Source: a virus
IMG/VR virus record: IMGVR_UViG_3300025413_000002
Coordinates: 1-64,000 of that record
Direction: 5' to 3' (one strand)
DNA length: 64,000 nt
The translations under genes were made by a program, and so were the position numbers. Every line of letters begins with the position of its first letter. Position 1 is the first letter of the stretch. This document shows positions 6-60,721 of this stretch, in pieces. Below the pieces are notes generated by a model, which was not told the origin of the DNA, made no database searches, and saw only the letters and a program-made list of their open reading frames with translations.

Positions 6-284
6 ATGCTGCATGCGATGCGTCTGGAGCTAGACTGCGAGATGCGAGCTGCTGCGAAGATTGATACTTTCTATTTGCCGATAAATACAAAAGAATACAT
101 CCAGAAGGCCAACGCCTACGTGTACCTATACCACGTCATACCCCATACTAGATGCTGGTACCCTAAGGGTAAAGCCCCATTCACACTCCCACAAGTCTGG
201 ACTAAGATGCCAACAGACTTTGATAGGGACTACGACCATATCCCGACAAAGATTAAAAACTTGATAATCGAGAACTGTTACTAA
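6..284 (+). CDS. Hypothetical protein, possibly cut at the left edge
   Basis: Product of about 92 residues with no family I recognise. The frame is open to the first base of the window, so the true start may lie outside; ATG codons at 6 and 15 are the first inside. It is rich in Tyr, Lys and Asp, with no membrane segment or Cys cluster. It ends one base before the HNH gene and shares direction with the terminase genes, so it probably belongs to the same late transcript. Confidence 0.55.
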   Translation: MLHAMRLELDCEMRAAAKIDTFYLPINTKEYIQKANAYVYLYHVIPHTRCWYPKGKAPFTLPQVWTKMPTDFDRDYDHIPTKIKNLIIENCY

Positions 285-30036: not shown

Positions 30037-31623
30037 ATGGCTGTAATTGACTGCGCAGTTGCAGTAGGTTCATTCGTTGGGGCAGATGCTCTTGGTGCTG
30101 GTGCTGCGGCTGTAGCTGGCGGTGCGATTATGGGTGCTGGTGCTGGTGCTCTTTATAGTGGCATTACTGGTGATGGTAATATTTTAAATAGTGCTCTTAA
30201 TGGTGCTCTTATTGGCGGCGGTATTGGCGGTATCGGTGGTGCTGTTGGACTTACTGGTGCATCTGGTAGTTTATTTGGCGCCCCACAAGCTGGTGCGTTA
30301 AGCGGTGTAGGTAGTTCTCTTTTCCCAGCGGCTACTGGTGCCGTTACTCCAACAGTTGCTGCCCCTATTGCTGCCAGTAGCATTGGTAGTTCCGCTGCTC
30401 CTGCTATTGTAGATACTACTATACCTTCTGTAGGTGCAACAAATGCTGTAACACCTTCTATGGTGGCTGCGGCTAATGCAACTACAGACCCTATAGGTGC
30501 CATGGGGTATATGACTAGTGCAACACCTTCAGAACTTGCTGCTGCTACTGGCCCAGGCGCACAACTTGCTGCTCCTAGCTTTTGGGACTCTGGTATGGGT
30601 ACCGCAGCTAAATGGGGCGCTGGCTTAATGGCTGCTAATGCAATTATGAATAACGATGGTAAAAAATATGGCACATTATCTCAAAGCCAAGTTCAATCTT
30701 TACCACTACAGTACCAATCTAACTTCGGTACATACAAACCTTTAGATACTTCTGTTATGCGCCCTATGGGTCCTGCAATTGGATATACTGGAACTCCTTA
30801 TGGCGCTCCTGGTTATGTTGGTAGTCGTATTGGTTATGCAGCTGGTGGCGCTATTGATGGTGGTCTCTCTGATGCTAACCCTACACAAAATCCAAGTGTT
30901 GGTCCTGTAGAACAAATGTCTCGTGATAATGCACTTGGCCAAAACCAAATGTTCCCACAAGCCAATATTAATAGCCCAGCTTTTTCAAGTGCAACTAATA
31001 CCCCAATGGGTACAAATATGATTGCCGCCGCTGGCGATACTAATGTCGACCCTTATACTGGCGCTGAACGATTTGCTGATGGTGGTTTGCTAGAAAACAT
31101 AGCTACTATGCCAATTCGTCAGTTAGAAGCAGCTGCTAATAATCCTGAGCAAGCATTGCTTGGAGCCAATACTCCATTTGAAACTTCTATGTGGAATGGC
31201 TTGCTTGGTACAAATTACACACCAACAACTAATATGTGGGGCACTCCTACTGATGCAGCAGTTGCAGGGGATGTTTCTCATCGTCCACAATATGCAGCCC
31301 AAGGCGGTATTATGCAAGGGTATGCTCAAGGTGGAGTTCCTAATTTAGGTGGCTATGCAGCTGGTGGAAACCCAAGATTATTAAAAGGACCAGGCGATGG
31401 TATGTCAGATAATATTCCAGCGGTTATTGGACAAAAACAACCTGCAAGGTTGGCTGATGGTGAGTTTGTTGTACCTGCTGATGTTGTCTCGCATCTCGGT
31501 AACGGCTCTACTGATGCTGGTGCAAAGAAATTACATAGCATGATGGACAATGTTCGTAAGGCTAGAACTGGACGTAAGGCACAAGGCAAACAGATTAAAG
31601 CAGATAAATTTATTCCAAAATGA
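30037..31623 (+). CDS. Internal virion (ejection) protein, Gly/Ala-rich
   Basis: 528 aa. The first 130 residues are Gly/Ala-rich and hydrophobic, with GxxxG-like spacing (AVAGGAIMGAGAGALYSG, GGGIGGIGGAVG), suited to membrane insertion during DNA ejection. Several copies of a (Y/F)A-x-GG element follow (GYAAGGAID, RFADGGLLEN, GYAQGGVPN, GYAAGGN). The C-terminus has the conserved DGMSDNIPAVIGQKQPARLA and DGEFVVPADVVSHLGNGSTD. Channel or core role inferred. Confidence 0.65.
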   Translation: MAVIDCAVAVGSFVGADALGAGAAAVAGGAIMGAGAGALYSGITGDGNILNSALNGALIGGGIGGIGGAVGLTGASGSLFGAPQAGALSGVGSSLFPAATGAVTPTVAAPIAASSIGSSAAPAIVDTTIPSVGATNAVTPSMVAAANATTDPIGAMGYMTSATPSELAAATGPGAQLAAPSFWDSGMGTAAKWGAGLMAANAIMNNDGKKYGTLSQSQVQSLPLQYQSNFGTYKPLDTSVMRPMGPAIGYTGTPYGAPGYVGSRIGYAAGGAIDGGLSDANPTQNPSVGPVEQMSRDNALGQNQMFPQANINSPAFSSATNTPMGTNMIAAAGDTNVDPYTGAERFADGGLLENIATMPIRQLEAAANNPEQALLGANTPFETSMWNGLLGTNYTPTTNMWGTPTDAAVAGDVSHRPQYAAQGGIMQGYAQGGVPNLGGYAAGGNPRLLKGPGDGMSDNIPAVIGQKQPARLADGEFVVPADVVSHLGNGSTDAGAKKLHSMMDNVRKARTGRKAQGKQIKADKFIPK

Positions 31624-32039
31624 CCCTAACTGTCCGCCAAATTGGTCCTAAATGCATGCCCAGGGCTTTCCCTGAGTTTAGGTCTTTTATTGCGGAAGGG
31701 CTAAAAGATACGGATGACTGCACTGCAGATGATGCAAAAGAGTATTTAGAAAGAGGAGATTGGTTATTATTTTCTGTTTATGATGACCAAAACGTAGTTA
31801 AAGGTGCTTATGTTGTTACCTATAACCATGCTCCTGCTGGTAAAATTGCGATAATTATATCTGCTGCAGGTAAGGGGTTGGCTAGCACTGAAGTGTTTGG
31901 TCAGCTATGTGAAATTGTTAAAGCATCAGGCGCTACAAAATTCCAGGCATTAGCCAAAGAATCAGCAGCTAGATTATATAAACGTGTTGGCTTTGAGAAT
32001 AAAGCTATATTAGTGGAGAAGACATTATGGGTGGCATAG
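31620..32039 (+). CDS. GNAT-like acetyltransferase domain protein
   Basis: 139 aa. The helix-strand pattern ends with the GNAT-type segment ESAARLYKRVGFENKAILVE, and a central strand region (GAYVVTYNHAPAGKIAIIIS) precedes it. The usual acetyl-CoA loop (R/Q-x-x-G-x-G/A) is not obvious, so activity is uncertain. It lies between two ejection proteins and overlaps both (4 and 13 bases). Small GNAT-like proteins are frequent at this position in podoviruses. Confidence 0.6.
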   Translation: MTLTVRQIGPKCMPRAFPEFRSFIAEGLKDTDDCTADDAKEYLERGDWLLFSVYDDQNVVKGAYVVTYNHAPAGKIAIIISAAGKGLASTEVFGQLCEIVKASGATKFQALAKESAARLYKRVGFENKAILVEKTLWVA

Positions 32040-34810
32040 TAAGTTCAATTTTTGGTGGCGGCGGTGGCGGTGGAAGTTCTCCAGCCCCTTCTCCTACTTC
32101 TCAAAATATTACTACATCTAATATTGCTCCATGGGCACAATCGGGTGTATCTGACCTTATTAATGCTGGTATGGGTCAAGTATTTCAAACTAATCCAGAT
32201 GGTTCAATTAATACAAATGCAATTAAAGGCTATACACCGTTTAATGCTAATACTCCTGCAGGGCAAGAATGGGTACAGGGTGCGGCGGGTAGCGTAGCTG
32301 GGTTCTCTCCACTTCAGCAACAAGCTCAACAAAACATTGCTAACATGCAAGTGCCTGGTCAGTATGGTCAAGCTATGGATATGTCCACTATGTCTGGTCT
32401 TGGTTCTTTAGGCACTACTGGACAAGCTGCTGGCTATGGTGGTCTTGGTGCTATTGCTGGTCGTCAAGGGGAAATGGCTGGTATGTCTTATGGACAAAAC
32501 GCTACAGACCCTAATGCCGTTGCTGCATATATGAACCCATACTTGCAAGCTACTTTAAACCCAGCGTTGCAGTTACAAGCACAACAGTTTGGCCAGATTA
32601 ATGCGCAGAATCAAGGTCAAGCCACGCAACAGGGCGCATTTGGTGGTGGCCGCCAAGCCATTATGCAAGGATTAAACCAACAGAATCAAATGCTTGCACA
32701 GAATCAATTAGTTGGTAATGCTTATAACCAAGCGTACAACACAGCCAATCAAAATATGCAAAATGCAGCCAGTCTCGGTATGCAAGGTGCTGGTCTTGGT
32801 ATTTCTGGTGCTCAAGCTGGTCTTGCTGGTGTTGGTGCACAACAAGCTGGTTATGGTCAATTAGGTGCTCAAGGTACTAACCTTGCAAATATTGCTGGTG
32901 CTCAGACTCAACAAGGTCTTAATATCAATGCGGCTCAACAAGCTGCTGGTGCAACACAACAACAAAACCAACAGAATATTCTCAATCAAGCAATGGCCAA
33001 CTACAATACGGCTCAGACTTACCCAATGACACAGTTGGCACAGTTAGAGTCTATGTACACTGGTGCTCCACAAAACATTACTTCATCTACATACTCTGCT
33101 GCTCCTAGCACTACATCTCAGTTAGCTGGTCTTGGTACCGCTGCTATTGGTGCATCTAAACTTATGTCCGCTGCTAAAAAAGGCGGATTACCAAAAGAGT
33201 TTGAGGTTAAGAAGTTTAAAGAAGGTAAAGAAGTTAAAGATGACAATACGCAGGAATGGCTTGACATGCTTAATTTTTCTGCTAACGCCCCATCAGCTAA
33301 ATATGTAGAAGGTTTAGGAATGCAAAACCCACCTCCTATGGTTAATGGCCGTGTAGGTGCAAACGTCGATGCTTTAGGTGGAAATATTCGTGCTGGTTTA
33401 TCTGGCACAGCAATGATGACCCCCGATAAACGAATTGTAACTAAACCAGGGGCAGTAGATGTTGGGTATAGAACTGCACAAAATTCTGAATATGACCCAT
33501 ATCTAGACATGAATGCGTATAGGTCTATTAATGCAATTCCAGGAAAAGGATATGCTCAAGGTGTAAACGCTAAATATACAATACCCTTTGTTTCTGGTGG
33601 GATTGCAAGCGGTGTACCTGCAGCAAAATTAGATTATATGCTTGGTAGCTTAGATGACCAGCAGTTAGCTATGAAAGCCGACCCAAAACAAAATGACCCA
33701 CAGACTTCACAGGCTGCACAAAGTGAACAAGCTTTCCGTGCACAAATGCGCCCAGCAGGAATTGGTCAAAACTATAACTTTAATGCCGCTGGTGGTGGCA
33801 TAGTTGCGTTTGCTGAAGGTGACCAAGTAAAAGGTGATAGTTCCGACATTAAGTCTTTGTTGCTACAAGAGTACAAAACTCCAATCGAAGAACAAATTGC
33901 TAAGAACAAAGCACTACTACCTAACACAGACTTTGCTACTAAATATGGCGACATGTTAAGTAAAGTAGGTTATGACTTTGATGCTGATAAAAAGCAAGCT
34001 CAGGGTTTACGCTTACTCCAAGCTGGCTTAGGCATTATGGGTGGTACATCTCCATTTGCTGCAGCTAATATTGGACAAGGTTCACAAGCTGCATTACAAG
34101 GCTACGGTGAAGATATCAAGGGTATGAAGCAACAACAGATGGACTTGGCCAAACAACAATTTGAACTTGGTAAGTTCGGTTACAATTCTGCTGCTGACCT
34201 TGTTAAAGCTGCTCAGACAGATAGAAAAGGCGTTCTTGCTGACCTTACTAAAATTTACGGCGACGAGAAATCAGCTGAGGCTCACCTTAAAGCAGCTGAA
34301 ATTTCTGCAGGTGCTACCGTACAGGCTGCAACAATTGGTGCCGAGAAAGCTAATGCTAAAGAGAAAGCCGGTATTCAGACTGAGTTTGATGCATTGGTTG
34401 CACAAGGCTACGACAAAGATAGCCCAATTACTAAGCAAATTGCACAACAGAATTACTTTGCTGCAACCCGTCCTTATGGTGCCTCATCTATGGTTAGCGC
34501 TATTGGTCAACGTATTGCACAAGATGGACAAATTAAATCACTTAATACTCAGCTCCAAATTGCACAAATGAGTAACGATGCTGATAAAATTAAAACTATA
34601 CAAGCACAGATTGCTGCTAGAACCCAGGCTATTCAACAGGAAGTTCAAAGTAATGCTGGAGCGGTTAAAGCGGGTAGTCCTACACCAGTAGTTACCCCTA
34701 CTCCAATTCCTCCACCAGCCCCAGCTAAACCTGCTATACCTCCAGGTACTTTAAAACGAAACCCAGATGGTTCATTTAATTACGAACTAACTCCGCAAAA
34801 TCCCCAATAG
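32027..34810 (+). CDS. Large internal virion (ejection) protein, Gln/Ala-rich
   Basis: 927 aa. A glycine-rich leader (GGIVSSIFGGGGGGGSS) precedes about 300 residues of Gln/Asn/Ala/Gly-rich helix (QAYNTANQNMQNAASLGMQG). The middle carries FVSGGIASGVPAAKLDYMLG and NAAGGGIVAFAEGDQVKG, related to motifs in the 528-aa protein. The C-terminal 250 residues are helical and charged with a Pro-rich end. Size, composition and position fit an ejection protein such as P22 gp16/gp20 or T7 gp15 functional analogues. Confidence 0.65.
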   Translation: MGGIVSSIFGGGGGGGSSPAPSPTSQNITTSNIAPWAQSGVSDLINAGMGQVFQTNPDGSINTNAIKGYTPFNANTPAGQEWVQGAAGSVAGFSPLQQQAQQNIANMQVPGQYGQAMDMSTMSGLGSLGTTGQAAGYGGLGAIAGRQGEMAGMSYGQNATDPNAVAAYMNPYLQATLNPALQLQAQQFGQINAQNQGQATQQGAFGGGRQAIMQGLNQQNQMLAQNQLVGNAYNQAYNTANQNMQNAASLGMQGAGLGISGAQAGLAGVGAQQAGYGQLGAQGTNLANIAGAQTQQGLNINAAQQAAGATQQQNQQNILNQAMANYNTAQTYPMTQLAQLESMYTGAPQNITSSTYSAAPSTTSQLAGLGTAAIGASKLMSAAKKGGLPKEFEVKKFKEGKEVKDDNTQEWLDMLNFSANAPSAKYVEGLGMQNPPPMVNGRVGANVDALGGNIRAGLSGTAMMTPDKRIVTKPGAVDVGYRTAQNSEYDPYLDMNAYRSINAIPGKGYAQGVNAKYTIPFVSGGIASGVPAAKLDYMLGSLDDQQLAMKADPKQNDPQTSQAAQSEQAFRAQMRPAGIGQNYNFNAAGGGIVAFAEGDQVKGDSSDIKSLLLQEYKTPIEEQIAKNKALLPNTDFATKYGDMLSKVGYDFDADKKQAQGLRLLQAGLGIMGGTSPFAAANIGQGSQAALQGYGEDIKGMKQQQMDLAKQQFELGKFGYNSAADLVKAAQTDRKGVLADLTKIYGDEKSAEAHLKAAEISAGATVQAATIGAEKANAKEKAGIQTEFDALVAQGYDKDSPITKQIAQQNYFAATRPYGASSMVSAIGQRIAQDGQIKSLNTQLQIAQMSNDADKIKTIQAQIAARTQAIQQEVQSNAGAVKAGSPTPVVTPTPIPPPAPAKPAIPPGTLKRNPDGSFNYELTPQNPQ

Positions 34811-34827
34811 TTAGGTAAAATACAACG

Positions 34828-37800
34828 ATGCCAGTCGTAAATATACCTAATGTTGGGGCGGTAAACTTTCCTGATTCCATGTCCCAGGCGGATATTCTTT
34901 CCGCTATTCAAAATGACATACTGCCTAATTACGTTAATAAGCAAGCGCAGGAAGAACAACAGACTCAAGCACCTGCACAGCAAGCACCTACTGAAGGATA
35001 TGGCTTAGCAAGCGCATTTAAAGATGTAATTAGCGCCCCTGGCGATGTGCTCTCCCCAAGCCAAGCAACTTTGGGCGCTGGTGAAAAAGGTATAGTTAAT
35101 GCAAAACAAGCGGTATCTAACGCACAGCTTGCACAACTCATAAACAACCAAGCTGCCGATAAAGAACAATACGGCGAATATTATGAGCGTGCTCCTAAAA
35201 GTGAACTAGAAAAAATTAGTGCCCGCGATAAAACTATAGAAGATAAAATTCAAAACCTTGCTGAGTTTGGTTTAGAACGTAAAGCTATTGAAGAAAAACG
35301 TGGAGTAAACCCTTTAACTAAAACGTTAGGTAATCTACGAGGTAGTGAAGAATATAAAGCCGCAGATAGCTTTGACCAATTAAAAATGATTGGTAACGCA
35401 ATGTGGGATAAAAGAGGCGACTTACCTGGATATGTGGGTGGGGTTGCTTTAGAATCTTTACCTGCTACAGTACCAACAATAGTAGCTGCTATGGCCGCAA
35501 GATTTGGTGGTTTTGGTCCTAAGGGCGCCGCAATTATGGGTGGTAGTGGTTCAGCGTTAACTGAATTTGGTAATCAATATGCTGAACTACGTGCAGAAGG
35601 TATGGACCATAAAGAAGCTTGGGAAAAAGCTGGAGTTAAATCTGCTGTTATCGGTTTGTTTGATGCGGCTTCTTTTAAATCCGCTGGTAATTCAGCAGGT
35701 GAGCTACTTAAAAATGTTGAAAAAGGTTTTATAAAAGAAGCGGCTAAAGAAACAGGTAAAGAAGTTGGCGTACAAGCACTATATGGTATGGCTGGTGAAG
35801 CTTTAGGTTCTGTAGCTATTAATCAAAAAATAGACCCGCTTGATGTTCTTGAAGAAGGTATTGGTGAGATTGCTGGTGCTCCGCTTGAGGCTACTAGTAC
35901 ATTTAAATTTAAACAACAAGAAGCTGTTGAAGCTGCTAATAAACCAACGCCACCTCCAGTAGTTAACCCCCCTGCACCACCAGCCGGCCCACAAATTACT
36001 ACTGCAGTAGGTACGCCTATTGTTGCAGCACCGTTAGATACTGCGGAAAAACAAATAGCTGCTAAAGCAGCTGCACCTATTACACCAACAACTACACCAG
36101 ATGTTGAAGAACAAGCTAAAGCAAAATCAGTTGAACTTGGAATACCTTTAGAAGATGCACGTAAATTAGTTGGCGCACCAGCAGTTGCGGCTCCAGTATC
36201 TACAGTTAACGCAATCAACACCGGCAACCCAGAATTAGATACAATAGCTAATAAGCTCAAGGCAAAATATAACTTGTCTAACGAAAGAGCAATTAAGCAG
36301 GCTACGGAAGTAGTACGCCAACAGAATATAGTAAATCAAGGAGTCCAAAATGGACGAACACAGCCGAGTACTGGAGTTGACGCCGGAATTAATCAGCCAA
36401 GCGTTTCTGTGCCTCAAGCTGGACTTCAGCCCACCGGAGGAGTTACGACATCTCAACCTGCAGGATTGGCAAGCACTATCGGAACTACTGGAGTCCCTGG
36501 AGTACGAGCAGAAGCTGTGCAAGCGGCTGAACCAAGTGCATTAAGTACCGTACCCCAAAACATAATTGATTTACATGCTAAATCAGTTGCAGCAGATGAA
36601 GCAAATAAAGTATCTTCTACTCCAGCTAATAAACGAAATGCTACTATGGCGGCTAGGCGTCTTGGTGAAGCTAAAGCAGCCCAGTTAGGATTAACTTATG
36701 AAGATTATTTAAAAGAATCAAACCCACAAGCAATCCGTGCTTTAGATGATGCAGTAGCCAGCCAATATAATCAGTTACAAGAAACTCCAGCTGCTGTAGC
36801 CCCAGAAGTAATACCTGCACCAACCGCAACTAAAGGTAAACGTACTGGCCGACCACGTGTAGAGTTAACTTATGAACAACAAGCTGAAAAGAAACAAGCT
36901 AAAGCCGCTCAGACTAAAGATTGGAAAGCAGCTACTAAAACTGTACAAGCAGCTATAGAAACTCTTGATACACCTGAGCCTATTAGAGATAACTTTGCAA
37001 CTCAAGATGCTTATTTAGATGCAGGTGTTCAGCATAGAGCAAGACGCAACCAGGCCCTAGATACTTTGCATGAGATTTCTAAAGGTCAACAACGAGATAG
37101 CAAACCAGGTAAGGCTGCTAAAGAAGCTTTGTCTCATCCGTCTGTTACTACTCAAGAACAAGCTAACCTTCAACAGCGTATAGAAATTAAAAAGAAAGCT
37201 GCAGCCACAGCGGGTAAACCATCTAAGTCTGAAACTTCTGGTACACCAGATTCTAAATATTATTCATTTGATAATGCTAGCCAAGCTATTAACTACATAG
37301 CTAATAATGGTACTTTATTTGAACGATTCTTGGCTAAGCGTTTAAGACCTTTCCTTAAGGGTGTAAACCTTATAGTAGTAAATGCAGCCAATGAAGTGCC
37401 TGAGAGTCTTCGCACTAACTTTAAAGGTGCTAACGGTCTTTATGCAGCAACAGAATTAAATGGTAAGTCGTATAGAACTATTTACCTACGTGGCGAATCC
37501 TTTGGCAACTCTACAGATTTTCAAGGCGTAAACAACACAGTATTCCTACACGAAGCTCTGCATGCTGCAGTCAATGCTCGTATTGACGAGTGGAGAAGCC
37601 TGTTAGAAGAAGGCAAAGAAATACCACAAAAGCTTGGCGATGCTATCAATGGTTTGATGGATGTAATGCGTAATGCAAGTCGTGAGTATGCTTACCAAAC
37701 CTTAACAGGCACAATTAATGTTGACCCACGTGTTGCACAGCTATTTACCAGCGAAGCTGAAGGTGGTATTCAGATTTATGACGACCTTAAAGAGTTTGTA

Positions 37801-40800
37801 GCGTATGGTCTAACTGAAGACTCTATGCAGCAGTTCTTGTTCCAAATCAAAGGCGAGATTGTTCCTAATCAGCCTGGTAGATTTAGGTCTTTATTTAATC
37901 GCTTTGTACGTTCAATCCGTGATTTGTTTGACATGGATGACTCACACCAGTCTGCGTTGCAGGATTTAATTGTACTTACAGAAGGTTTGCTTAAATACGA
38001 TACCGAACTGCAAGAAGCACCGCAAGTAAGTGCTGCACGACAAAAGAAAGCTAAGGCTCAAAAGCTAGACCAAGATACTAAAAAGGTTATGCGTAGTCAA
38101 AATATTCACGATATTGCTGAAGGCTTTGGCGGTTGGGTAAAAGATGGTCATGACTTTGGTGATTTAGTTGATTTATTAAAAGCTAGATTTAAAGGCATGA
38201 CTGAGGATGCTATTAAAACTACGCTTATGACTTTACGTACATCTGACATTATTCGTTGGATGGGGGATAAAATTGCTGGCCTAAAAGAAATTGATGAGTT
38301 TACTCAAAAAATGGCTGCGATGAGAACTAATATGCTTGAAGCATATGCAGCTAAAGCTGACCAGCTAGCTAAGTTTATTGTAAGTAACAAAGGTAGTGAC
38401 AAGATTCTTGGTAACGCTATGCACCTTGCACGCCTTAAAGGTGTTACACCAGATGCGCATGCTACCGCTATCGAAGCCGCTAACAATGACCCCAAAGTTA
38501 TTGAATTAACAAAGTTAATAGAAGACCCAGCTACTCCTGCAGAAAAGATATCTAATCTAACAGGGCAAAGAACCCGTCGTAAAAATGATATTCAAATTGT
38601 TTATGACGCTTGGACACAGCTAGGTAAGATTGAAGGCGGCCACGAGATGTATAAAATGGTACGTCAGTTCTACAAAGATAACTTTAACTTGCAACGCCAC
38701 TACTTAGACGAGCGCATTGAACGCCTACAAGAGTTGCCTGGTGATGTTAAAGATGAAAAGACTCCTAAAGGCCAGCTCATGGCTGAGATTCGCAAGATGC
38801 AGGAGAAGGATGCTATACAAGAATACTTCCCATTAATGCGTCATGGTCCAGCTTGGTTCCGTGAATCTGGTACAGATGGTGGTTTTATTTTATTTGATGA
38901 ACCATGGCAGCGTGAGTTGTATGCAATCAAACGTGCTAAAGAATTAGGTAAGCCTGTTGAAGAGTTGTTTAAAGACTTAACCTTTACTTCTGGTAATGAT
39001 ATAGCTTCTCTAAGAAATACTAATCAAAGAGAAAGCACCATGTTGAAAAACATGTTTGAAATCATTGATAAGGCTAACTTAGATGAAATTTCTTCTGAAG
39101 ATTTAAAAGACTCGTTATATCAAACTTGGTTAACAACTCTGCCAGAAGCAAGTATTCGCAAGCAGTTTATGCATGCAGAAAATGTATCTGGTTTTAGTGC
39201 CGATATCTTCCGCAACTTTACTGAATCTGCTAACCGTATGGCTAGCCAGACCCCACGCCTCAAGTATGCAGACCAAATGCAAACTGAGATTACTCGTGCT
39301 AGAGATAGTCTTGCAGGTGACCCGGACCAAGCCAAGTTAGGTTTGTTTATTGATACTGTTGGTGGCCGTGCAATGGAGCAGCTAAACCCACCAAGCCCTA
39401 ATCAACTAGCTTCTATAGCTACAAGATACGCATACTATATGTTATTGACTGGTGCTGGTTCTGCTGCTGTACAGTTAGTTGCTGTTCCAGTTATGATTTA
39501 CCCAGTATTGGGTGCACGTTATGGCTATGCTAGAGCCTCACTTAAGTTTGCTGCTTATTCAAACATTCTAGGTAGCATGGGTGTCAACATTAAAGAGACA
39601 CCAGAAACAATTCGTGGGTACCACATACCTAGCGTAACTGTATCTGTAGCTGATTCTTCACGTATTAAAAACAGCAAGACTTTATCTGCAGCATATCAAG
39701 CACTTAAAGAGCGTGGCTTGTTTGCCTTTACTGAAAACAATCTTCTTTCCCAGCGGGGTCGTACCCCATTAAATGCAACTCTTAGCGGGCCTAAGAAAGC
39801 ATTACGTATGACTGCCAATATTATGTCTGGTTTGTTTAGTGGTGCAGAACGTGTTAGTCGTGAGATTGCTGCGATGATGGCGTTTGAAATGCACTACGAT
39901 AAGACTAAGAACTTTGAAGAGTCTGTTGAAAAAGCTATTGCTGCTGTGCAAGATAACATGGGTCGCTACGATGCTATGGAAAGACCAGAGTTATTTAAGA
40001 AGTTACCAGTTATTTCCCAGTTCAAAATGTACGCAGCAAACATGACTTCTTTCTTTGTTCGCCATGCGTATAACTCAACTAAAGTAATTAGTGACCCTAA
40101 GTTAGCCTTTGAAAGCATGAAGATTTTAACCGGCGTTTTGATGATGGGCGCTATGTTCCATGGATTAAAAGGTATGCCACTCTATAGCGTTGTAGGTGCA
40201 GTTGTTGAAGCGCTTAGCGACTTGGGTGATGACGACGAAGAGAAGCGTAGAAAACGTGCTAGAAATCCGCTAGTTGCACAGAATGCTGACTTGCGTTTCC
40301 GTGAGTTTTTAAATGATAACTTTGGTCCTGTTATGGGAGACGTACTTTACAGCGGCCCTATATCTTCTCTTACCGATATTAATATTGGTGCTAAGACTTC
40401 GTTTGATAACTTGTGGTTCCGTGGCGGCAAACCAGCTAAGACTAACCAGGAAGCATTTAATAACTTTGTATTAGCCAATATTGGCCCAGCAGTATCAGGT
40501 ATTCTTGGTCAGACTGGTGCATTAGACGACTTTGAAAATGGGCATATTGAACGTGGCCTAGAGAAGATGTTACCTGCGTTCTTCAAAAACCCACTAGTAG
40601 CTGGACGTCTTGCAACTGAAGGCGCTAAGACTAAGGGTGGCGATACCATTATTAAGAAAGAAGATGTAACTGCGGCTAACGTAATCGCACAAGCTGCGGG
40701 CTTTGCTCCTACTAAGTTGGCTCGTCAACAAGAAGTTGGCTTTGAGTTAAAAGGTGAATATGTCAAAGCTGAGCAAGAAAGAACTCAGATTCTGCAGCGC

Positions 40801-41046
40801 CTAACCGACTCTGTCTTAAACAAAGATTTTGGTGGTGGTCAGAAAGATGTACAGCCTGTTATCAATCAAATCCGTCAGTTTAACAAACGCTACCCAATGG
40901 ATAAGGTAATGATTGACGGCGATGCTATCCAAAATACTTTGGATTCAGCATTAGAAGCTAGGGCACGCACATATAAGGGCGTACGTATTCCAACCGAAGC
41001 TATGATTCCTTACTTTGTTCCTGTCTTAAATCAGGGCAAGAAATAA
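34828..41046 (+). CDS. Giant internal virion protein with metallopeptidase-like domain
   Basis: 2072 aa, the largest gene here. It begins with a short module VNIPNVGAVNFPDSMSQADI common at the N-terminus of giant phage proteins. A Pro/Ala-rich region (about 360-700) links to a zincin-like domain with HEALH at 908-912 and a possible third ligand in KEFVAYG at about 989. A long helical region follows, and near 1650-1800 a part with AMMAFEMHYDKTKNFEESV and KMYAANMTSFFVRHAYNSTK resembles domains of phage polyvalent proteins. Probably ejected with the DNA; protease activity is inferred. Confidence 0.7.
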   Translation: MPVVNIPNVGAVNFPDSMSQADILSAIQNDILPNYVNKQAQEEQQTQAPAQQAPTEGYGLASAFKDVISAPGDVLSPSQATLGAGEKGIVNAKQAVSNAQLAQLINNQAADKEQYGEYYERAPKSELEKISARDKTIEDKIQNLAEFGLERKAIEEKRGVNPLTKTLGNLRGSEEYKAADSFDQLKMIGNAMWDKRGDLPGYVGGVALESLPATVPTIVAAMAARFGGFGPKGAAIMGGSGSALTEFGNQYAELRAEGMDHKEAWEKAGVKSAVIGLFDAASFKSAGNSAGELLKNVEKGFIKEAAKETGKEVGVQALYGMAGEALGSVAINQKIDPLDVLEEGIGEIAGAPLEATSTFKFKQQEAVEAANKPTPPPVVNPPAPPAGPQITTAVGTPIVAAPLDTAEKQIAAKAAAPITPTTTPDVEEQAKAKSVELGIPLEDARKLVGAPAVAAPVSTVNAINTGNPELDTIANKLKAKYNLSNERAIKQATEVVRQQNIVNQGVQNGRTQPSTGVDAGINQPSVSVPQAGLQPTGGVTTSQPAGLASTIGTTGVPGVRAEAVQAAEPSALSTVPQNIIDLHAKSVAADEANKVSSTPANKRNATMAARRLGEAKAAQLGLTYEDYLKESNPQAIRALDDAVASQYNQLQETPAAVAPEVIPAPTATKGKRTGRPRVELTYEQQAEKKQAKAAQTKDWKAATKTVQAAIETLDTPEPIRDNFATQDAYLDAGVQHRARRNQALDTLHEISKGQQRDSKPGKAAKEALSHPSVTTQEQANLQQRIEIKKKAAATAGKPSKSETSGTPDSKYYSFDNASQAINYIANNGTLFERFLAKRLRPFLKGVNLIVVNAANEVPESLRTNFKGANGLYAATELNGKSYRTIYLRGESFGNSTDFQGVNNTVFLHEALHAAVNARIDEWRSLLEEGKEIPQKLGDAINGLMDVMRNASREYAYQTLTGTINVDPRVAQLFTSEAEGGIQIYDDLKEFVAYGLTEDSMQQFLFQIKGEIVPNQPGRFRSLFNRFVRSIRDLFDMDDSHQSALQDLIVLTEGLLKYDTELQEAPQVSAARQKKAKAQKLDQDTKKVMRSQNIHDIAEGFGGWVKDGHDFGDLVDLLKARFKGMTEDAIKTTLMTLRTSDIIRWMGDKIAGLKEIDEFTQKMAAMRTNMLEAYAAKADQLAKFIVSNKGSDKILGNAMHLARLKGVTPDAHATAIEAANNDPKVIELTKLIEDPATPAEKISNLTGQRTRRKNDIQIVYDAWTQLGKIEGGHEMYKMVRQFYKDNFNLQRHYLDERIERLQELPGDVKDEKTPKGQLMAEIRKMQEKDAIQEYFPLMRHGPAWFRESGTDGGFILFDEPWQRELYAIKRAKELGKPVEELFKDLTFTSGNDIASLRNTNQRESTMLKNMFEIIDKANLDEISSEDLKDSLYQTWLTTLPEASIRKQFMHAENVSGFSADIFRNFTESANRMASQTPRLKYADQMQTEITRARDSLAGDPDQAKLGLFIDTVGGRAMEQLNPPSPNQLASIATRYAYYMLLTGAGSAAVQLVAVPVMIYPVLGARYGYARASLKFAAYSNILGSMGVNIKETPETIRGYHIPSVTVSVADSSRIKNSKTLSAAYQALKERGLFAFTENNLLSQRGRTPLNATLSGPKKALRMTANIMSGLFSGAERVSREIAAMMAFEMHYDKTKNFEESVEKAIAAVQDNMGRYDAMERPELFKKLPVISQFKMYAANMTSFFVRHAYNSTKVISDPKLAFESMKILTGVLMMGAMFHGLKGMPLYSVVGAVVEALSDLGDDDEEKRRKRARNPLVAQNADLRFREFLNDNFGPVMGDVLYSGPISSLTDINIGAKTSFDNLWFRGGKPAKTNQEAFNNFVLANIGPAVSGILGQTGALDDFENGHIERGLEKMLPAFFKNPLVAGRLATEGAKTKGGDTIIKKEDVTAANVIAQAAGFAPTKLARQQEVGFELKGEYVKAEQERTQILQRLTDSVLNKDFGGGQKDVQPVINQIRQFNKRYPMDKVMIDGDAIQNTLDSALEARARTYKGVRIPTEAMIPYFVPVLNQGKK

Positions 41047-41134: not shown

Positions 41135-41329
41135 TCAAATCCTCCAGACACGAATACCTCTGATGCTATCTTCGATGCTAACCTTCATCAAAACTGGCAT
41201 CTGCAATCTTTTTGCGGTGCGAGCTATATCCTGCTTAGCTTGCATGCAATTCAAGCAAGGAACAAAGAAAGACGTCCCCGGCTTGAAGTTTTTCCAATTA
41301 ATGTTGTAGCTCAGTTTCCCTACTAGCAT
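41135..41329 (-). CDS. Small Cys-containing phage protein
   Basis: 64 aa from the ATG at 41329 inside the end of the primase gene. It has GTSFFVPCLNCMQAKQDIAR and a C-terminal SIEDSIRGIRVWRI; I recall proteins with the GTSFF...RGxRVWR pattern as a small conserved phage family of unknown function. It is the last gene of the leftward operon before the terminators. An opposite-strand frame over the same bases has no ribosome site. Confidence 0.6.
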   Translation of the reverse strand: MLVGKLSYNINWKNFKPGTSFFVPCLNCMQAKQDIARTAKRLQMPVLMKVSIEDSIRGIRVWRI

Positions 41330-44144
41330 GCTCAATCTCCGGTGCAATTAATCCATCTATATCTAGTAACCCAGTAGAGCAATCAAATATCAATGCTGTT
41401 ACTCCAGGGGAGGTAATTTTCATACCTTTAGACATACGCTTATTCATGTAGCCTTTGTAGAATCCTTTAAGTTCTAATTCTCTTAGGGTGTCCTTGTAGT
41501 TAGTCTGGCGTTCTACACAGTCGTGCTTAAACTCACGAGTTACAAAGAACATCAACTTAGTATCAGGCTCATAGCGGATAAGCAATTCGCCCTTAGGTTC
41601 TAAAGTAGGCAAAGAATGGGCTGCAGTACGTTTATCTACGTCAGCTTTTACTACCAAGATGTTTTGCATGTGGCGGTTAATATAGTCACCCACTACGGCT
41701 ACGGCGCTTTCTGTAGGAGGTTTAATCTCTTCACGCATGCCTTGGATAGTCTTGCAAGTCCATTTATAAATCTCGGCCATGTCATAGTCATGCAAACCAA
41801 TACGCTTAGCAATAAGGCCACCAGCTATGTTACAAGCCGCCACAGCTGACCAAAAGCGTTCAGGAGGGGTTAGCCTTAACTCGGTATCAATACGGCGTTG
41901 TACATCCAAAATAGCCTGTACTGCTTCTTCTAAGTTATCTACCAGCCACTTGATGTATATATCCCCAGCATGCCCGTAATTCTCCTTTAGCTGGCGGTCA
42001 AATAGGCGCTTACCATCTTCGGTAGAAATAACATTGTTAGGTGGGATTGTGTACTCAAAAAGACGTAGCATCTCAGCATTAGCCCCAGCCTTAGCAGAAC
42101 CTAACTTTTCATAGAAAGACGCATTGGCGCTAGCCAAAGACATAGTCTGCCAAGTAGTGTTGTTTTCACGCAACTCATTGGTAGCCCCTTTCATGCGGTC
42201 CTTAGCCCTACCTTGAGACATTCCATAAGCCAAATCTGAGAAGTCTGCAGGGGTTATATTGGTTATTTCGTCAATGGTATAGGGTAAGTTATTCATTACC
42301 CCCAAACGCTGCATCTTGGCGTTGTTTGTGTCCTTCCAGACCGATGACAAAGACTCGGGGTGACCATACACACTGTTGCACATAAACAACGTTGTTGACT
42401 TACCAGTACCGCCAAACTTATAGATGACGTTAATGATTGCACCCTTAAGTCCAGTGAACTTAAATAGTGGTGCGCCAAAGGCAGTCAGGGCAGCAAACGC
42501 ATGTGGTTCTAGGCCCGGTAGGGAATACATATTAAATACTTCTCGCCAGTCTTCATACGTACCACATGGCACCATGTACTGTGCAATGGCTCGGGTCTCG
42601 GTTGATGCTGGACTTCCATAAGTACCATCCTTGCTAATCTCCCTATCCCCAATAATGAACTTGCTGTCTTTATCAGCCCATCCAAATTGTGTTCTCATAA
42701 TTTCTGATTTCCTTTTGTATTGCAGATTTTTTACAAATGACATAACAAAGTTAGATAAGTATTTCATTTGCGTTGGTGTGCAAGCTACACCCTTTGTTGC
42801 CAGCTCTTTTTTTAATTCGTCTGGTGATGCTATGATTGACAAAGGCACTACAAATTCCTTTATGCCATCATGAGGCAGATGCAGTTTCATTAATGCAACG
42901 GCTCCCGCAGTTGGGTCGGTCATTAACTTAACTACATATAAATCATGCTCATATACGCAGATTGGTTCGGCTTCCTCTGTTGTTGGGGGCATAAAGATTC
43001 CACCCGCAGCACCACGTAAAAACGGCTTAGGATACTCAGGGATAACTTCTACCACACCCTCTTTCACTTCTACCTTGTTATCTTCTAACTTCGCTTCATT
43101 AATCTCAGAACTAAGTGCGACTGGTCCTGTAATTTTGCCTTTCCATTTGCAGCCATCGCAACCACCAGGATTGTGTTTCTCAAATGTTGCACAGGTATGA
43201 GGGCCGCCTTTACCTTCTTTTTGTTGGGTAGCTTTAGCCTCGGTAGCAATCGCATCATAGTCAGGGTGCTGACTAGACATCATATGAATAGCAACCTCTC
43301 TATCCACGCATACATTAGCTACGGTTAGTGCCGACCACCATAATGGCTCGCTGATTGAGTCTTGATTTTCATAAGCATAATTAAGCTGTTGGCAACCGTT
43401 ATCACCACGAATCATGATGTTCTTAAAGCGTTGAATCTTGTTGCCTAACAAAGACTTAGTAAATTCGTTAAGCTCACCTTTACTAGGTGCAAACTCTATG
43501 GGTGCTACCTCAGTAACACCTAGTATTTCCTTGAACTTCCCAAACTCTATAGGCGCACCTTCTACTATGATTGATACTGGTAGGGCTGGTATTTCTTTAA
43601 AGTTAAATGTTCCAGGTATCCGCAAGACTCTAGCGGTTTCAAACACGGATGGGTCTACATAAAAGTTTTGTTTAATGCAAAGGTCTCTAAAGCGTTTAGC
43701 TACTGGTTCCCAAGCGTTCCGTGAAACAGATTCTGTTAAGGGCCAATACACATGTAAGCCTCTGCCTGAGTCAACAATAATTGGTGTTGGTAAGCCAATT
43801 AAATCGCAGAACTTTTTGAGTTCTTGCATACCTGTTGCTTGGTCAATATAACCATCAGGTCTTCCAGTTTTTGGGTTTACTTCTGCTTTAGCTTCGCCGC
43901 AATCTATATCCAGCCAGAATGCTTTAAGCGCTTTCACGTTATCTTGTTCTCTGCTCTCGCCAGTTTCAAACTTAGCAAGCCCAAAGAATACGTTGCGTTC
44001 TTCTGCAACAAACTTTTCTGTTATTTTATTTACTTCTTCTCGTGTCTGTACTAGCTTTTGTCTTACAGATTTCCCTTTAATTCCAAGTACAGCAAACCAT
44101 CCCTCTTGGGGAAGTACTGTATCTAAAAGGTCAATTGTTGTCAT
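41298..44144 (-). CDS. Primase-polymerase (AEP) fused to a DUF927-like helicase
   Basis: 948 aa from the ATG at 44144 with GGAAG upstream. The N-terminal part shows archaeo-eukaryotic primase motifs: FWLDIDCG (D79-x-D81) and SGRGLHVYW (126-134). A Cys cluster (HTC, GGCDGCKWKG near 330) may bind zinc. The C-terminal ATPase has Walker A GGTGKS at 578-583 and YTIDEITN as a Walker B-like segment. Such fusions prime and unwind DNA at the phage fork. It fits with the family A polymerase encoded upstream in the operon. Confidence 0.8.
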   Translation of the reverse strand: MTTIDLLDTVLPQEGWFAVLGIKGKSVRQKLVQTREEVNKITEKFVAEERNVFFGLAKFETGESREQDNVKALKAFWLDIDCGEAKAEVNPKTGRPDGYIDQATGMQELKKFCDLIGLPTPIIVDSGRGLHVYWPLTESVSRNAWEPVAKRFRDLCIKQNFYVDPSVFETARVLRIPGTFNFKEIPALPVSIIVEGAPIEFGKFKEILGVTEVAPIEFAPSKGELNEFTKSLLGNKIQRFKNIMIRGDNGCQQLNYAYENQDSISEPLWWSALTVANVCVDREVAIHMMSSQHPDYDAIATEAKATQQKEGKGGPHTCATFEKHNPGGCDGCKWKGKITGPVALSSEINEAKLEDNKVEVKEGVVEVIPEYPKPFLRGAAGGIFMPPTTEEAEPICVYEHDLYVVKLMTDPTAGAVALMKLHLPHDGIKEFVVPLSIIASPDELKKELATKGVACTPTQMKYLSNFVMSFVKNLQYKRKSEIMRTQFGWADKDSKFIIGDREISKDGTYGSPASTETRAIAQYMVPCGTYEDWREVFNMYSLPGLEPHAFAALTAFGAPLFKFTGLKGAIINVIYKFGGTGKSTTLFMCNSVYGHPESLSSVWKDTNNAKMQRLGVMNNLPYTIDEITNITPADFSDLAYGMSQGRAKDRMKGATNELRENNTTWQTMSLASANASFYEKLGSAKAGANAEMLRLFEYTIPPNNVISTEDGKRLFDRQLKENYGHAGDIYIKWLVDNLEEAVQAILDVQRRIDTELRLTPPERFWSAVAACNIAGGLIAKRIGLHDYDMAEIYKWTCKTIQGMREEIKPPTESAVAVVGDYINRHMQNILVVKADVDKRTAAHSLPTLEPKGELLIRYEPDTKLMFFVTREFKHDCVERQTNYKDTLRELELKGFYKGYMNKRMSKGMKITSPGVTALIFDCSTGLLDIDGLIAPEIEHASRETELQH
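42028..42040. repeat. Outlying one-mismatch copy of the CTAACA-W-TGTTAG dyad
   Basis: ATAACATTGTTAG inside the primase gene, 12 kb from the main cluster. It may be a chance match. Confidence 0.3.
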
Positions 44145-44168
44145 ATATCTTCCAAAGAAACACAATCG

Positions 44169-58288: not shown

Positions 58289-59494
58289 CTAGTTCACATA
58301 GATAGTCTTACCAACGGGAGCAACCGCATTACCCCCACCAACAATCGCCCACAACATCGGCACATCTTGCCACTCCTCAGGTGTTCCCCAATCACCGATA
58401 TATCCATCAGTTAGATTGATGATGCACTCAGGCTTGATACTTTGTTCCTTCAAGTGGTGCGCCATACATCTTGGGTCTGTGCCACCACCGCCCATTACTT
58501 TAGTCTCACTAACAATGTTAGATACTGCTGAACCCTCATACTGCTCATGGTTTGCTACTGACGCATCCCAATACACTAGGTCAATCTTCTGTGGCGATAC
58601 CTCATTCACAATGCCTTGCACTTCACTCAAACAATCAGCAATCTCCCTAGCACCTTGACTACCGCTAGTGTCAATGCCAATCGCAATATGTCCAATCTTC
58701 TCACTCACCATGCTAGGCATATAACAATCCATCGCTAAGTATCTGCGATTAGGTCTGCGCCATGATGATGAATCACGACCAGCGCATACAGTCTTAACAA
58801 ACTCACGCAACTGTTCACGCCAATCCACCTTAGGGTTTAACAATTCATCTAGCTCACGATTCATACCCATACCGCCCTTGCCTTGCATTTTGGTTTGAGC
58901 TATCTGTCCTGAGCGCAACGCTTGGTCAATGTCCTTCTCGAGTTCCTTCTTGACTGCATCGGTTAGGTCTTGCGCCCCTTCCCAATCATGGTCATCGAAC
59001 CCATCGCCACCGCTAAACCCTTCCTCTTTGAGAATGTCATACACTTGCTTAGTATTCATACCCTCGAACCGCTTATCAACCAAGCCTATTACCTTGCCAT
59101 CCTTCATTGGCATAGCAATCACATCTTGGTTAGGGTCTAGCTTTACTAACTGCAAATTGATTACATAATCACAAGCGGCATTAGTTAATTCCTTGTCTTG
59201 CTCTGCTAGCTTGCGCCATGTAAACAAATGACGATACGCTTTGTGCAACGCCTCATGCAATACAACGAACGCTAACTCCTTATCGTCTAACATCTTGACG
59301 AACTCACGCCCATATATCTCATCACGACCATTGGTGCAAGCACTAGGAATATCATCACGCACATAAGTCTTACCGACCATGAGGATACCTGACCACAATG
59401 CAAACCTAGCATTACGCATCAAGGCAATCTTCACCTTCTTGAGTCTGCGTTCTTCCTTGCCATCGCTTACAACTTCGTTTGTCTTATCTAACAT
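58289..59494 (-). CDS. VWA-domain metallopeptidase-like protein (DUF2201 type), MoxR partner
   Basis: 401 aa. The N-terminal part has a zincin-like VVLHEALHKAYRH (HEALH 80-84). The C-terminal 130 residues form a von Willebrand A domain with the metal site DTSGS (275-279), GGGGTDP and LTDGYIGDW. This is the DUF2201 layout. The upstream gene two steps away encodes a MoxR-like AAA ATPase, and such pairs act together in remodelling or chelatase-like machines. The start codon lies in a perfect dyad at 59488. Confidence 0.85.
   Translation of the reverse strand: MLDKTNEVVSDGKEERRLKKVKIALMRNARFALWSGILMVGKTYVRDDIPSACTNGRDEIYGREFVKMLDDKELAFVVLHEALHKAYRHLFTWRKLAEQDKELTNAACDYVINLQLVKLDPNQDVIAMPMKDGKVIGLVDKRFEGMNTKQVYDILKEEGFSGGDGFDDHDWEGAQDLTDAVKKELEKDIDQALRSGQIAQTKMQGKGGMGMNRELDELLNPKVDWREQLREFVKTVCAGRDSSSWRRPNRRYLAMDCYMPSMVSEKIGHIAIGIDTSGSQGAREIADCLSEVQGIVNEVSPQKIDLVYWDASVANHEQYEGSAVSNIVSETKVMGGGGTDPRCMAHHLKEQSIKPECIINLTDGYIGDWGTPEEWQDVPMLWAIVGGGNAVAPVGKTIYVN
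58509..58521. repeat. Dyad, copy 4 (perfect arms)
   Basis: CTAACAATGTTAG inside the VWA gene, read as S-N-I-V on the - strand. Confidence 0.85.
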
Positions 59495-59504: not shown

Positions 59505-59657
59505 CTATATCAAATCACTCATCTTAGAAATACCTCGTTCATAAAGTAGCTTACGCAACTTACCCATAGCATGGTATTGAATCTGCCTGACTCGCTCTCT
59601 GCTTATGGTGTCCCGCTTAACTACCTTACGCTTTTTGGGCTTGGCTTCTTCGCTCAT
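59505..59657 (-). CDS. Mini-protein with a sigma70 region 4.2 helix-turn-helix
   Basis: 50 aa from the ATG overlapping the AAA gene stop (ATGA) to TAG at 59505. After a basic arm (KPKKRKVVKR), residues 17-38 read TISRERVRQIQYHAMGKLRK, which matches the recognition helix of sigma70 region 4.2 (E. coli TRERIRQIEAKALRKLR) in every -35-contacting position. Regions 2, 3 and 4.1 are missing. It sits between the MoxR and VWA genes. It may bind -35-like DNA or the host beta flap; function is inferred. Confidence 0.78.
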   Translation of the reverse strand: MSEEAKPKKRKVVKRDTISRERVRQIQYHAMGKLRKLLYERGISKMSDLI

Positions 59658-60721
59658 AGCAAATCTTCATTCTTGGCAACCCACTCAGTAAACTTCTTAG
59701 AGCTAAATGCAATCGCTTGCTTAGTCGGGGCTTTAGCTACATTGATTGCAAAGCACGCTTGCCACTCGCTTTCAAATCTCTCCATGTATTGCATGAAGGT
59801 ATCAATAGAGTTCTTATCAATCTTAGCAATCGCACCGAATACAGTAATCGCACAAGCACCAGCACTCTCAGGCACATGAGACTTTTTAGGGTCATTGAGG
59901 GTGTCCTCCCATGTAGGCAACTGGTCTGCATACTCGATATACGCTTGCATATCACGACTTGCTGACTCACCGACTGCGCCTGTCATCGCTGAAATCATAG
60001 TGTCTTGGTTCAACTTATCACGCTTTCTAACAATGTTAGATACAGTCTCAAGTGAACGAGGCGATACAAATGCCGTTTGCACTTTCTTAGGGTTATAGAT
60101 ATACGGGTTATCATTCTGCCCTTCTTCGGTATAGCTAGCCATAGAGTGAGGGAATTGGCGAACCCATGCACATACCTCAGGTGCAATATCATTATTGATA
60201 GCCCATGCCAACCATTCCTCAGCGTTAGGTTTGCGAACTGTAACTGGCACGATACGATTGCGAGTATGCGCTTTAAGACTATCGCCTACACCATCACTAC
60301 CTAGATTGCCCGTCATGAAGATGATTGAATCAGGGTTTACTTCCACATCACCCAATCGTGGGTTTGCTTTCTCGAGTAATGGATGGAGCATATTCTTAAC
60401 TGGCTCAGCACCCTTAGTGAACTCATCTAACATTGTTATAACTGGCTTACCTGTGTGCATCTTGAATCTGCGATTAGGGTAATAAGCCGTTGTGCGAGTT
60501 TCATGGTCTACTACTGGCATAGCAATATCGCCCAAGTCCATGTTCGGCACATCAATGTAGGCAATCTCATGAGATGGTAGCTTTGCGCCCAAAGCCTTAA
60601 GCAAAGATGATTTACCAATTCCTGGCTCGCCTTGTAATAGATAGCGATTCTCAGGGGTGGCGAGTAATAACTCAGATGCCTCAGCCAATGTAATTGTCTT
60701 ACCAAAATGTAATTCAGCCAT
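59654..60721 (-). CDS. MoxR/CobS-like AAA+ ATPase
   Basis: 355 aa. Walker A GEPGIGKSS (31-39), Walker B VITMLDEF (94-101), sensor 1 IIFMTGN and a downstream arginine-containing RNRIVPVTV strand are those of the MoxR class of AAA+ proteins. With the VWA protein it would form an ATPase/metal-binding pair of the CobS/CobT type. AAAAGGAAAAG precedes the ATG. It holds two dyad copies and its leader holds another. Confidence 0.87.
   Translation of the reverse strand: MAELHFGKTITLAEASELLLATPENRYLLQGEPGIGKSSLLKALGAKLPSHEIAYIDVPNMDLGDIAMPVVDHETRTTAYYPNRRFKMHTGKPVITMLDEFTKGAEPVKNMLHPLLEKANPRLGDVEVNPDSIIFMTGNLGSDGVGDSLKAHTRNRIVPVTVRKPNAEEWLAWAINNDIAPEVCAWVRQFPHSMASYTEEGQNDNPYIYNPKKVQTAFVSPRSLETVSNIVRKRDKLNQDTMISAMTGAVGESASRDMQAYIEYADQLPTWEDTLNDPKKSHVPESAGACAITVFGAIAKIDKNSIDTFMQYMERFESEWQACFAINVAKAPTKQAIAFSSKKFTEWVAKNEDLL
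60027..60039. repeat. Dyad, copy 6 (perfect arms)
   Basis: CTAACAATGTTAG within the AAA gene, read as S-N-I-V. Confidence 0.85.
60427..60439. repeat. Dyad, copy 7 (one mismatch)
   Basis: CTAACATTGTTAT within the AAA gene; its codons form the T-M-L of the Walker B segment. Confidence 0.7.

Follow-up and report, generated by a model that had tools for sequence, protein, structure and literature searches.

A giant putative ejection protein of an uncultured phage carries a predicted zincin metallopeptidase domain

The window analysed here (64,000 of the 67,043 bases of virus record IMGVR_UViG_3300025413_000002) contains, at positions 34828–41046 on the forward strand, a single open reading frame (ORF) with an ATG start that encodes a protein of 2072 amino acids. 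A first-pass annotation, made from the sequence alone, had described an ejection protein with the zincin motif HEALH at residues 908–912 and a downstream E-F-V-A-Y element, fitting the metallopeptidase domains of phage polyvalent proteins. Both elements are confirmed, EFVAY beginning at residue 989. Because the motif is conserved, the predicted fold is zincin-like, virion proteins match the domain, and a PLxRFG region and a probable LPD39 region follow it (Table 1), the reading of this gene product as a phage polyvalent or ejection protein with a polyvalent-type metallopeptidase domain is supported. The module and this class of protein are already known; what is new is this family of uncultured phages as a member.

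HEALH is the sole HExxH in the protein, and any HExxH arises in 1.0% of 5000 composition-preserving shuffles of it. A first homologue search returned 7 loci and an alignment search 23. Residues H908, E909, H912, E989, F990, Y993 and G994 are invariant in all 19 family members, a set biased for H908, which was contained in the search pattern NNTVFLH (alignment A5 holds 18 of the 19, L024 being excluded because its ORF is cut). Since H908 lay in one of the earlier patterns, a further search relied solely on the C-terminal half. It gave 191 confirmed loci, of which 80 were kept, corresponding to 77 unique proteins, 7 of them too short upstream to judge. The zincin domain was found in 63 of the 70 informative relatives (E 1e-5 or better), and H908, E909, H912 and E989 are retained in all 62 proteins with residues there, one further row being gapped. 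An alignment of 58 unique stretches has 243 well-occupied columns; just 7 of these show no variation, the columns of the H, E, H and E being four of them. The conservation of these four predicted catalytic or ligand residues far exceeds chance, and the persistence of the motif in homologues, which the annotation had put forward as a check, holds in both sets.

Profile searches, also recommended there, recovered PLxRFG and, below its gathering threshold, LPD39, but no Pfam metallopeptidase family, MPTase-PolyVal included, above its cut-off. No such family is listed for the 19 full-length members at E 0.01, and the 19 zincin stretches gave only DUF6782 (E 0.15) and Tox-MPTase4 (E 0.14), in one member each.

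An AlphaFold2 model of the domain, built from the 19-member alignment, has a predicted local distance difference test score of 79.9 and a predicted template modelling score of 0.81. In local numbering (residue minus 802), it places strands at 44–49, 68–75 and 78–86, HEALH inside a helix spanning 101–125, and the downstream glutamate inside a helix spanning 185–194; a zincin-like fold is therefore predicted near residue 908, as the annotation had anticipated. The three-stranded core sheet, the HEXXH helix and the Glu helix are the same features given for zincin-like metallopeptidases of polyvalent proteins in PMC5512222. The top superposition is on the N4 virion RNA polymerase (vRNAP; 9pnt, residues 2124–2391, Z 10.3, 207 residues aligned), followed by a second N4 structure (9pnr, Z 9.9) and by residues 289–506 of the PhiM1 tetrameric ejection protein (TEP; 8vb2_A, Z 9.9, 148 aligned, root-mean-square deviation (RMSD) 3.6 Å). 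M34-type zincin catalytic domains rank next with this second-look aligner (Z 5.0–5.8), and in BFVD the model finds its best match in a core protein of the phiKMV-like kind (E 1.1e-8). Residues 803–1065 are almost certainly a zincin domain. As judged from model and sequence, it is probably an active peptidase, in which H908, H912 and E989 would be the zinc ligands and E909 the general base.

Relatives of the domain were found in the virion proteins of named phages. Searched against the PDB, the zincin profile has a single match that reaches E 0.001, to chain 9sfn_G (E 1.1e-14), which is labeled ‘Internal virion protein’ and whose segments HEAVHAAT and KELVAWGLT align with the zincin motifs. A profile was required for this match, a single-sequence phmmer search of PDB sequences returning nothing. 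With a divergent member as tblastn query, 148 phage records matched, and the 60 listed among them are chiefly phiKMV-type core proteins and N4-like vRNAPs; the zincin domain of phiKMV gp37 as query gave 164 matches. The zincin hidden Markov model (HMM) matches 15 of 15 named proteins, which were, N4 excepted, picked from zincin matches (E 1e-19 to 2e-4, the N4 vRNAP being weakest), and they include phiKMV gp37, vRNAPs and the DarB-like protein of phage Parlo. In phiKMV gp37 (L030, 3259–7272), the domain aligns with the zincins and contains HExxH, with a Glu further downstream. Lelidair gp49 (L130, 1521–5312), near identical to PhiM1 TEP, which is a subunit of the virion ejectosome, has HEAAH at 385. 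The CB1 vRNAP, annotated as a structural protein confirmed by tandem mass spectrometry, carries the same zincin. An HExxH is present in 19 of the 24 named phage proteins examined. In a cross-class alignment E989 is invariant in 38 of 38 rows; because the named rows were chosen for HE..H, the alignment is informative for E989 alone, and the proteins of altidsur, RHEph02, BD1, SWcel and CRP-4, without HE..H, had been dropped beforehand. The first 50 kilobases of HTVC027P and of DSL-LC04, cultured phages near in terminase, gave no zincin match. A second HExxH of another type lies upstream in two relatives (L045, residue 580, VTGHEGRHRAM; L054, residue 1617, MEHELGHFM).

Three groups of known proteins offer the closest comparisons. 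The PLxRFG or DarB-like polyvalent proteins share the C-terminal module, and Serratia phage Parlo gp81 has the same zincin at 1195 plus a second HExxH at 2557; it is 3764 amino acids long, compared with 2072 here. In the N4-like vRNAPs (Schitoviridae, N4 gp50), the same zincin is found (HELVH at 2228 in N4) and the gene occupies the same place at the virion operon end, beside convergent replication genes, but the C-terminal regions are not demonstrably related. Scans with Pfam, PHROGs and NCBIfam found neither an RNA polymerase domain nor the methylase-helicase dyad of DarB in the 2072-residue protein. The phiKMV gp37 and PhiM1 proteins, of the T7 gp16-type core, have the same zincin before a large C-terminal part and are encoded by the last internal virion protein gene of their operon, as is the giant gene; they differ in being about 1260–1340 amino acids long, without an LPD39 or PLxRFG sequence match, and the relation of their C-terminal part is suggestive only.

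PMC5512222 (Iyer and others, 2017) names the polyvalent zincin class, with the N4 vRNAP domain as its founding case, and sorts the zincin-like metallopeptidases of polyvalent proteins into 12 clades; a preprint on the N4 vRNAP (PMC12633501) notes the HExxH in subdomain C1 (2124–2375). Less expectedly, alignment and modelling show that the module recurs in phiKMV/PhiM1-type ejection cores, where it is annotated as an endolysin or transglycosylase. The main text of PMC5512222 mentions neither KMV nor internal virion proteins, the words protease, peptidase and HEXXH are absent from PMC11440229, and protease, metallo, zinc and polyvalent from the ejection-protein review PMC8954989. None of the papers listed in literature searches names, in its title or the opening of its abstract, the domain of phiKMV gp37-type proteins as a zincin, although such an identification may still be published. 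I suggest that the ‘endolysin’ label of phiKMV gp37-type proteins and of PhiM1 TEP 268–528 be re-examined.

The C-terminal likeness to polyvalent proteins, also part of the annotation, is firmly borne out. NF032893 (PLxRFG) matches residues 1332–2055 with a score of 309 bits, its cut-off being 100 (E 7e-92), and PHROG 10089 (DarB-like) matches residues 1400–2059 (E 4.8e-45). LPD39 (PF18858) scores 24 bits (E 3.6e-5), under its gathering threshold of 27; it is matched in 11 of the 19 members at E 0.01, and exceeds the threshold in 5 of 8 relatives scanned, directly after the zincin position. Two zincin-less relatives (L066, L070) have HATPase_c_3 upstream of LPD39, one of them also with a WLM metallopeptidase match below cut-off, and in the cultured Pseudomonas phage Rollin the C-terminal module and LPD39 are accompanied by a different motif, HEMGH at 1068. 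The HATPase relatives and Rollin point to exchangeable cargo before a common C-terminus, as expected of polyvalent proteins.

The evidence that the PLxRFG/LPD39 half is an ejectosome hub is suggestive. Compared by HHalign with phiKMV-type C-terminal regions, it gave a collinear best match with scores of 40–45 in three of four runs (reversed-alignment controls 17–25) and of 29 in the fourth (controls 20–22), and ‘internal virion protein D’ of Roseobacter phage CRP-4 is among its BFVD matches (E 1.3e-5). The C-terminal HMM matches CRP-4 gp39 with an E of 0.045 only, and the C2 region of the N4 vRNAP showed no relation. That a single zinc-peptidase module is the enzymatic part common to PLxRFG polyvalent proteins, N4 vRNAPs and phiKMV/PhiM1 cores, three classes of giant ejected proteins generally considered separately, with the PLxRFG/LPD39 half as the hub, is a tentative proposal and somewhat doubtful. 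If true, polyvalent proteins would be ejection machines with exchangeable cargo, not passive passengers.

Gene order bears on delivery. Within the structural operon the giant gene comes last, after a smaller ejection gene, which is the position of podophage ejection proteins; PMC8954989 gives the order as a gp14-like, a gp15-like and a larger gp16-like gene. The vRNAP genes of LUZ7, KpCHEMY26, EcP1 and CB1 have the same position, before convergent replication genes. This operon-end location, and the match of the zincin to virion proteins that are structurally solved or confirmed by mass spectrometry, indirectly support the first-pass suggestion that the virion delivers a protease; from homology and gene order, the giant protein is very likely virion-carried and ejected.

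I propose, with a probability of roughly 0.7, that this is the giant ejection protein of a phage of the short-tailed type, whose zincin, after ejection, cleaves either the chain it belongs to or a host protein. From the N-terminus, its parts would be a region that may include a membrane segment, a flexible linker, the zincin, LPD39 and the helical PLxRFG module. A few copies would be stored in the head with the 927-residue neighbour and would precede the DNA on its way out through the tail. As in the ejection cores of other podophages, the C-terminal module would help to form the channel or to thread it. Acting then in the cytoplasm or the envelope, the zincin would cut a protein; its substrate would be a host protein or, about equally likely, the ejected polypeptide, whose parts would thereby be freed. 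Podophage ejection proteins are mostly known as channel builders. A conserved, and by prediction probably active, metallopeptidase in the first protein to enter raises the testable question of what gets cut, which can be asked in laboratory phages because phiKMV- and N4-type phages carry the same module.

Several results weigh against this proposal. The zincin is missing in 7 of the 70 relatives (L064, L066, L070, L084, L085, L093, L106) and an HExxH in 5 of the 24 named phage proteins, so the domain is non-essential to the class. Foldseek found no match to the zincin model in the PDB at E 0.001 or better, the support being provided by sequence matches and by superpositions with the second-look aligner, and the RMSD of the best N4 alignments is high (12.2 Å for 9pnt and 10.8 Å for 9pnr). 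For the C-terminal half, the HHalign probability of a relation to the ejection hub is just 1.5–29%, and the PDB superposition (Z 5.7) lies under the noise level of the aligner.

PMC5512222 offers three roles: the zincin may process its own chain, either in the head or in the host, or it may cut host proteins. Self-processing in the head would make the zincin a maturation protease, cutting its own chain or a partner in the assembling head, with no host role, as proposed for P1 DdrB; the same source cites processing of DdrB before packaging and proposes autoproteolysis, and a long variable linker does precede the zincin here. In mature PhiM1 virions, however, one chain of 8vb2 covers both 289–506 and 535–1195, so that this relative is uncleaved just after the zincin before release, and the N4 vRNAP is packaged unprocessed (PMC5512222). 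These two observations favour action after ejection over action in head assembly, which I consider reasonably probable, and leave maturation unlikely, though neither bears on a cut in the N-terminal linker. Within the proposal of cleavage after ejection, a special case that overlaps with it in confidence is a zincin that specifically degrades a protein of a defence system, whether restriction, CRISPR or another. The C-terminal half is common to DarB-like antirestriction proteins, but the part held in common is the C-terminal module and not the methylase or helicase; the counter-defence role assumed in the first-pass annotation is possible, processing of its own chain or some other target in the host accounts for the data no less well, and I rate counter-defence as a minority option, slightly below maturation.

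The domain could also be a degenerate zincin, kept without catalysis as a structural element of the ejectosome or as a handle for packaging. The N4 region that includes the zincin is needed for encapsidation (PMC5512222), and the domain is wholly missing in some relatives; on the other side, four of the seven invariant columns are the predicted ligands and general base, and a structural block would have no need of a general-base Glu, which makes this role improbable. Far less probable still is a peptidoglycan hydrolase acting on the cell wall. PMC11440229 assigns TEP 268–528 an endolysin/exotransglycosidase-like fold by BLASTP and DALI, and phiKMV gp37 relatives are annotated likewise, but this very stretch contains the HEAAH of Lelidair gp49 and aligns with the zincin. 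Pfam at E 1 found no lysozyme or transglycosylase family in phiKMV gp37, phiNV3 p38 or Lelidair gp49, a weak negative because none is found in phiKMV gp36 either, though that is annotated with a lysozyme motif.

Table 1. Features of the giant protein and of neighbouring genes, in window positions.
Feature	Position	Strand	Basis
Giant ejection/polyvalent protein, 2072 aa	34828..41046	+	ORF; similar-sized homologues in viral contigs
N-terminal stretch MP-VNIPNVG-VNFPDSMSQ, residues 1–34	34828..34929	+	Conserved only in some relatives
Ala/Gly-rich region with hydrophobic stretch, residues 198–360 (best window 206–224)	35419..35907	+	Hydropathy
Low-complexity variable linker, residues ~361–800	35908..37227	+	Differs in length and sequence among relatives
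Predicted zincin metallopeptidase domain, residues 803–1065	37234..38022	+	AlphaFold2 model, superpositions, HMM matches
HEALH, predicted zinc-binding/catalytic motif, residues 908–912	37549..37563	+	Motif and conservation
EFVAYG, residues 989–994; E989 predicted third zinc ligand	37792..37809	+	Invariant E
Probable LPD39 domain, residues 1117–1311	38176..38760	+	Pfam PF18858, below gathering; relatives above
PLxRFG/DarB-type C-terminal helical module, residues 1332–2055	38821..40992	+	NCBIfam NF032893, PHROG 10089
528-aa protein, same operon	30037..31623	+	Matched, mainly in C-terminal part, at 43 of loci searched
139-aa GNAT-like acetyltransferase in virion operon	31620..32039	+	Pfam GNAT E 0.005, below cut-off; 14 of loci searched
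927-aa probable partner ejection protein	32027..34810	+	PHROG 4287 ‘DNA ejection protein’ E 1.1e-7; upstream in close relatives
Primase/helicase-like gene, convergent, marks virion operon end	41298..44165	-	DUF927 E 1.9e-28; in 78 of loci searched

The virion genes include a terminase, a portal and a major head protein, followed by a 661-residue virion protein. Searched by tblastn against phages, the 927-residue neighbour gave no match, and a scan of bacterial and archaeal genomes matched 19 stretches, none of them a relative. Acetyltransferase genes are also found among the virion genes of Serratia phage Parlo and Roseobacter phage CRP-4.

At the N-terminus of the giant protein, residues 1–34 might, as a guess, be a packaging signal, and residues 198–360 may resemble the membrane-associated N-terminal domain of the N4 vRNAP. 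A short exact peptide is repeated within the first 100 residues in 20 of 48 unique complete relatives, compared with 0.15 expected from shuffles; examples are NPFAQ, FVPLE, SFEEA and FGGVP (for instance in L046, L049, L052, L057 and L092), and they are perhaps a binding or packaging tag.

The window has a second HEALH, whose protein Pfam identifies as DUF2201 metallopeptidase-VWA (E 6e-27 and 2e-13) and PHROGs label HNH endonuclease. This protein adjoins an AAA ATPase, the two genes lying at 58289–59494 and 59654–60721 on the reverse strand, and the pair is MoxR/VWA-like.

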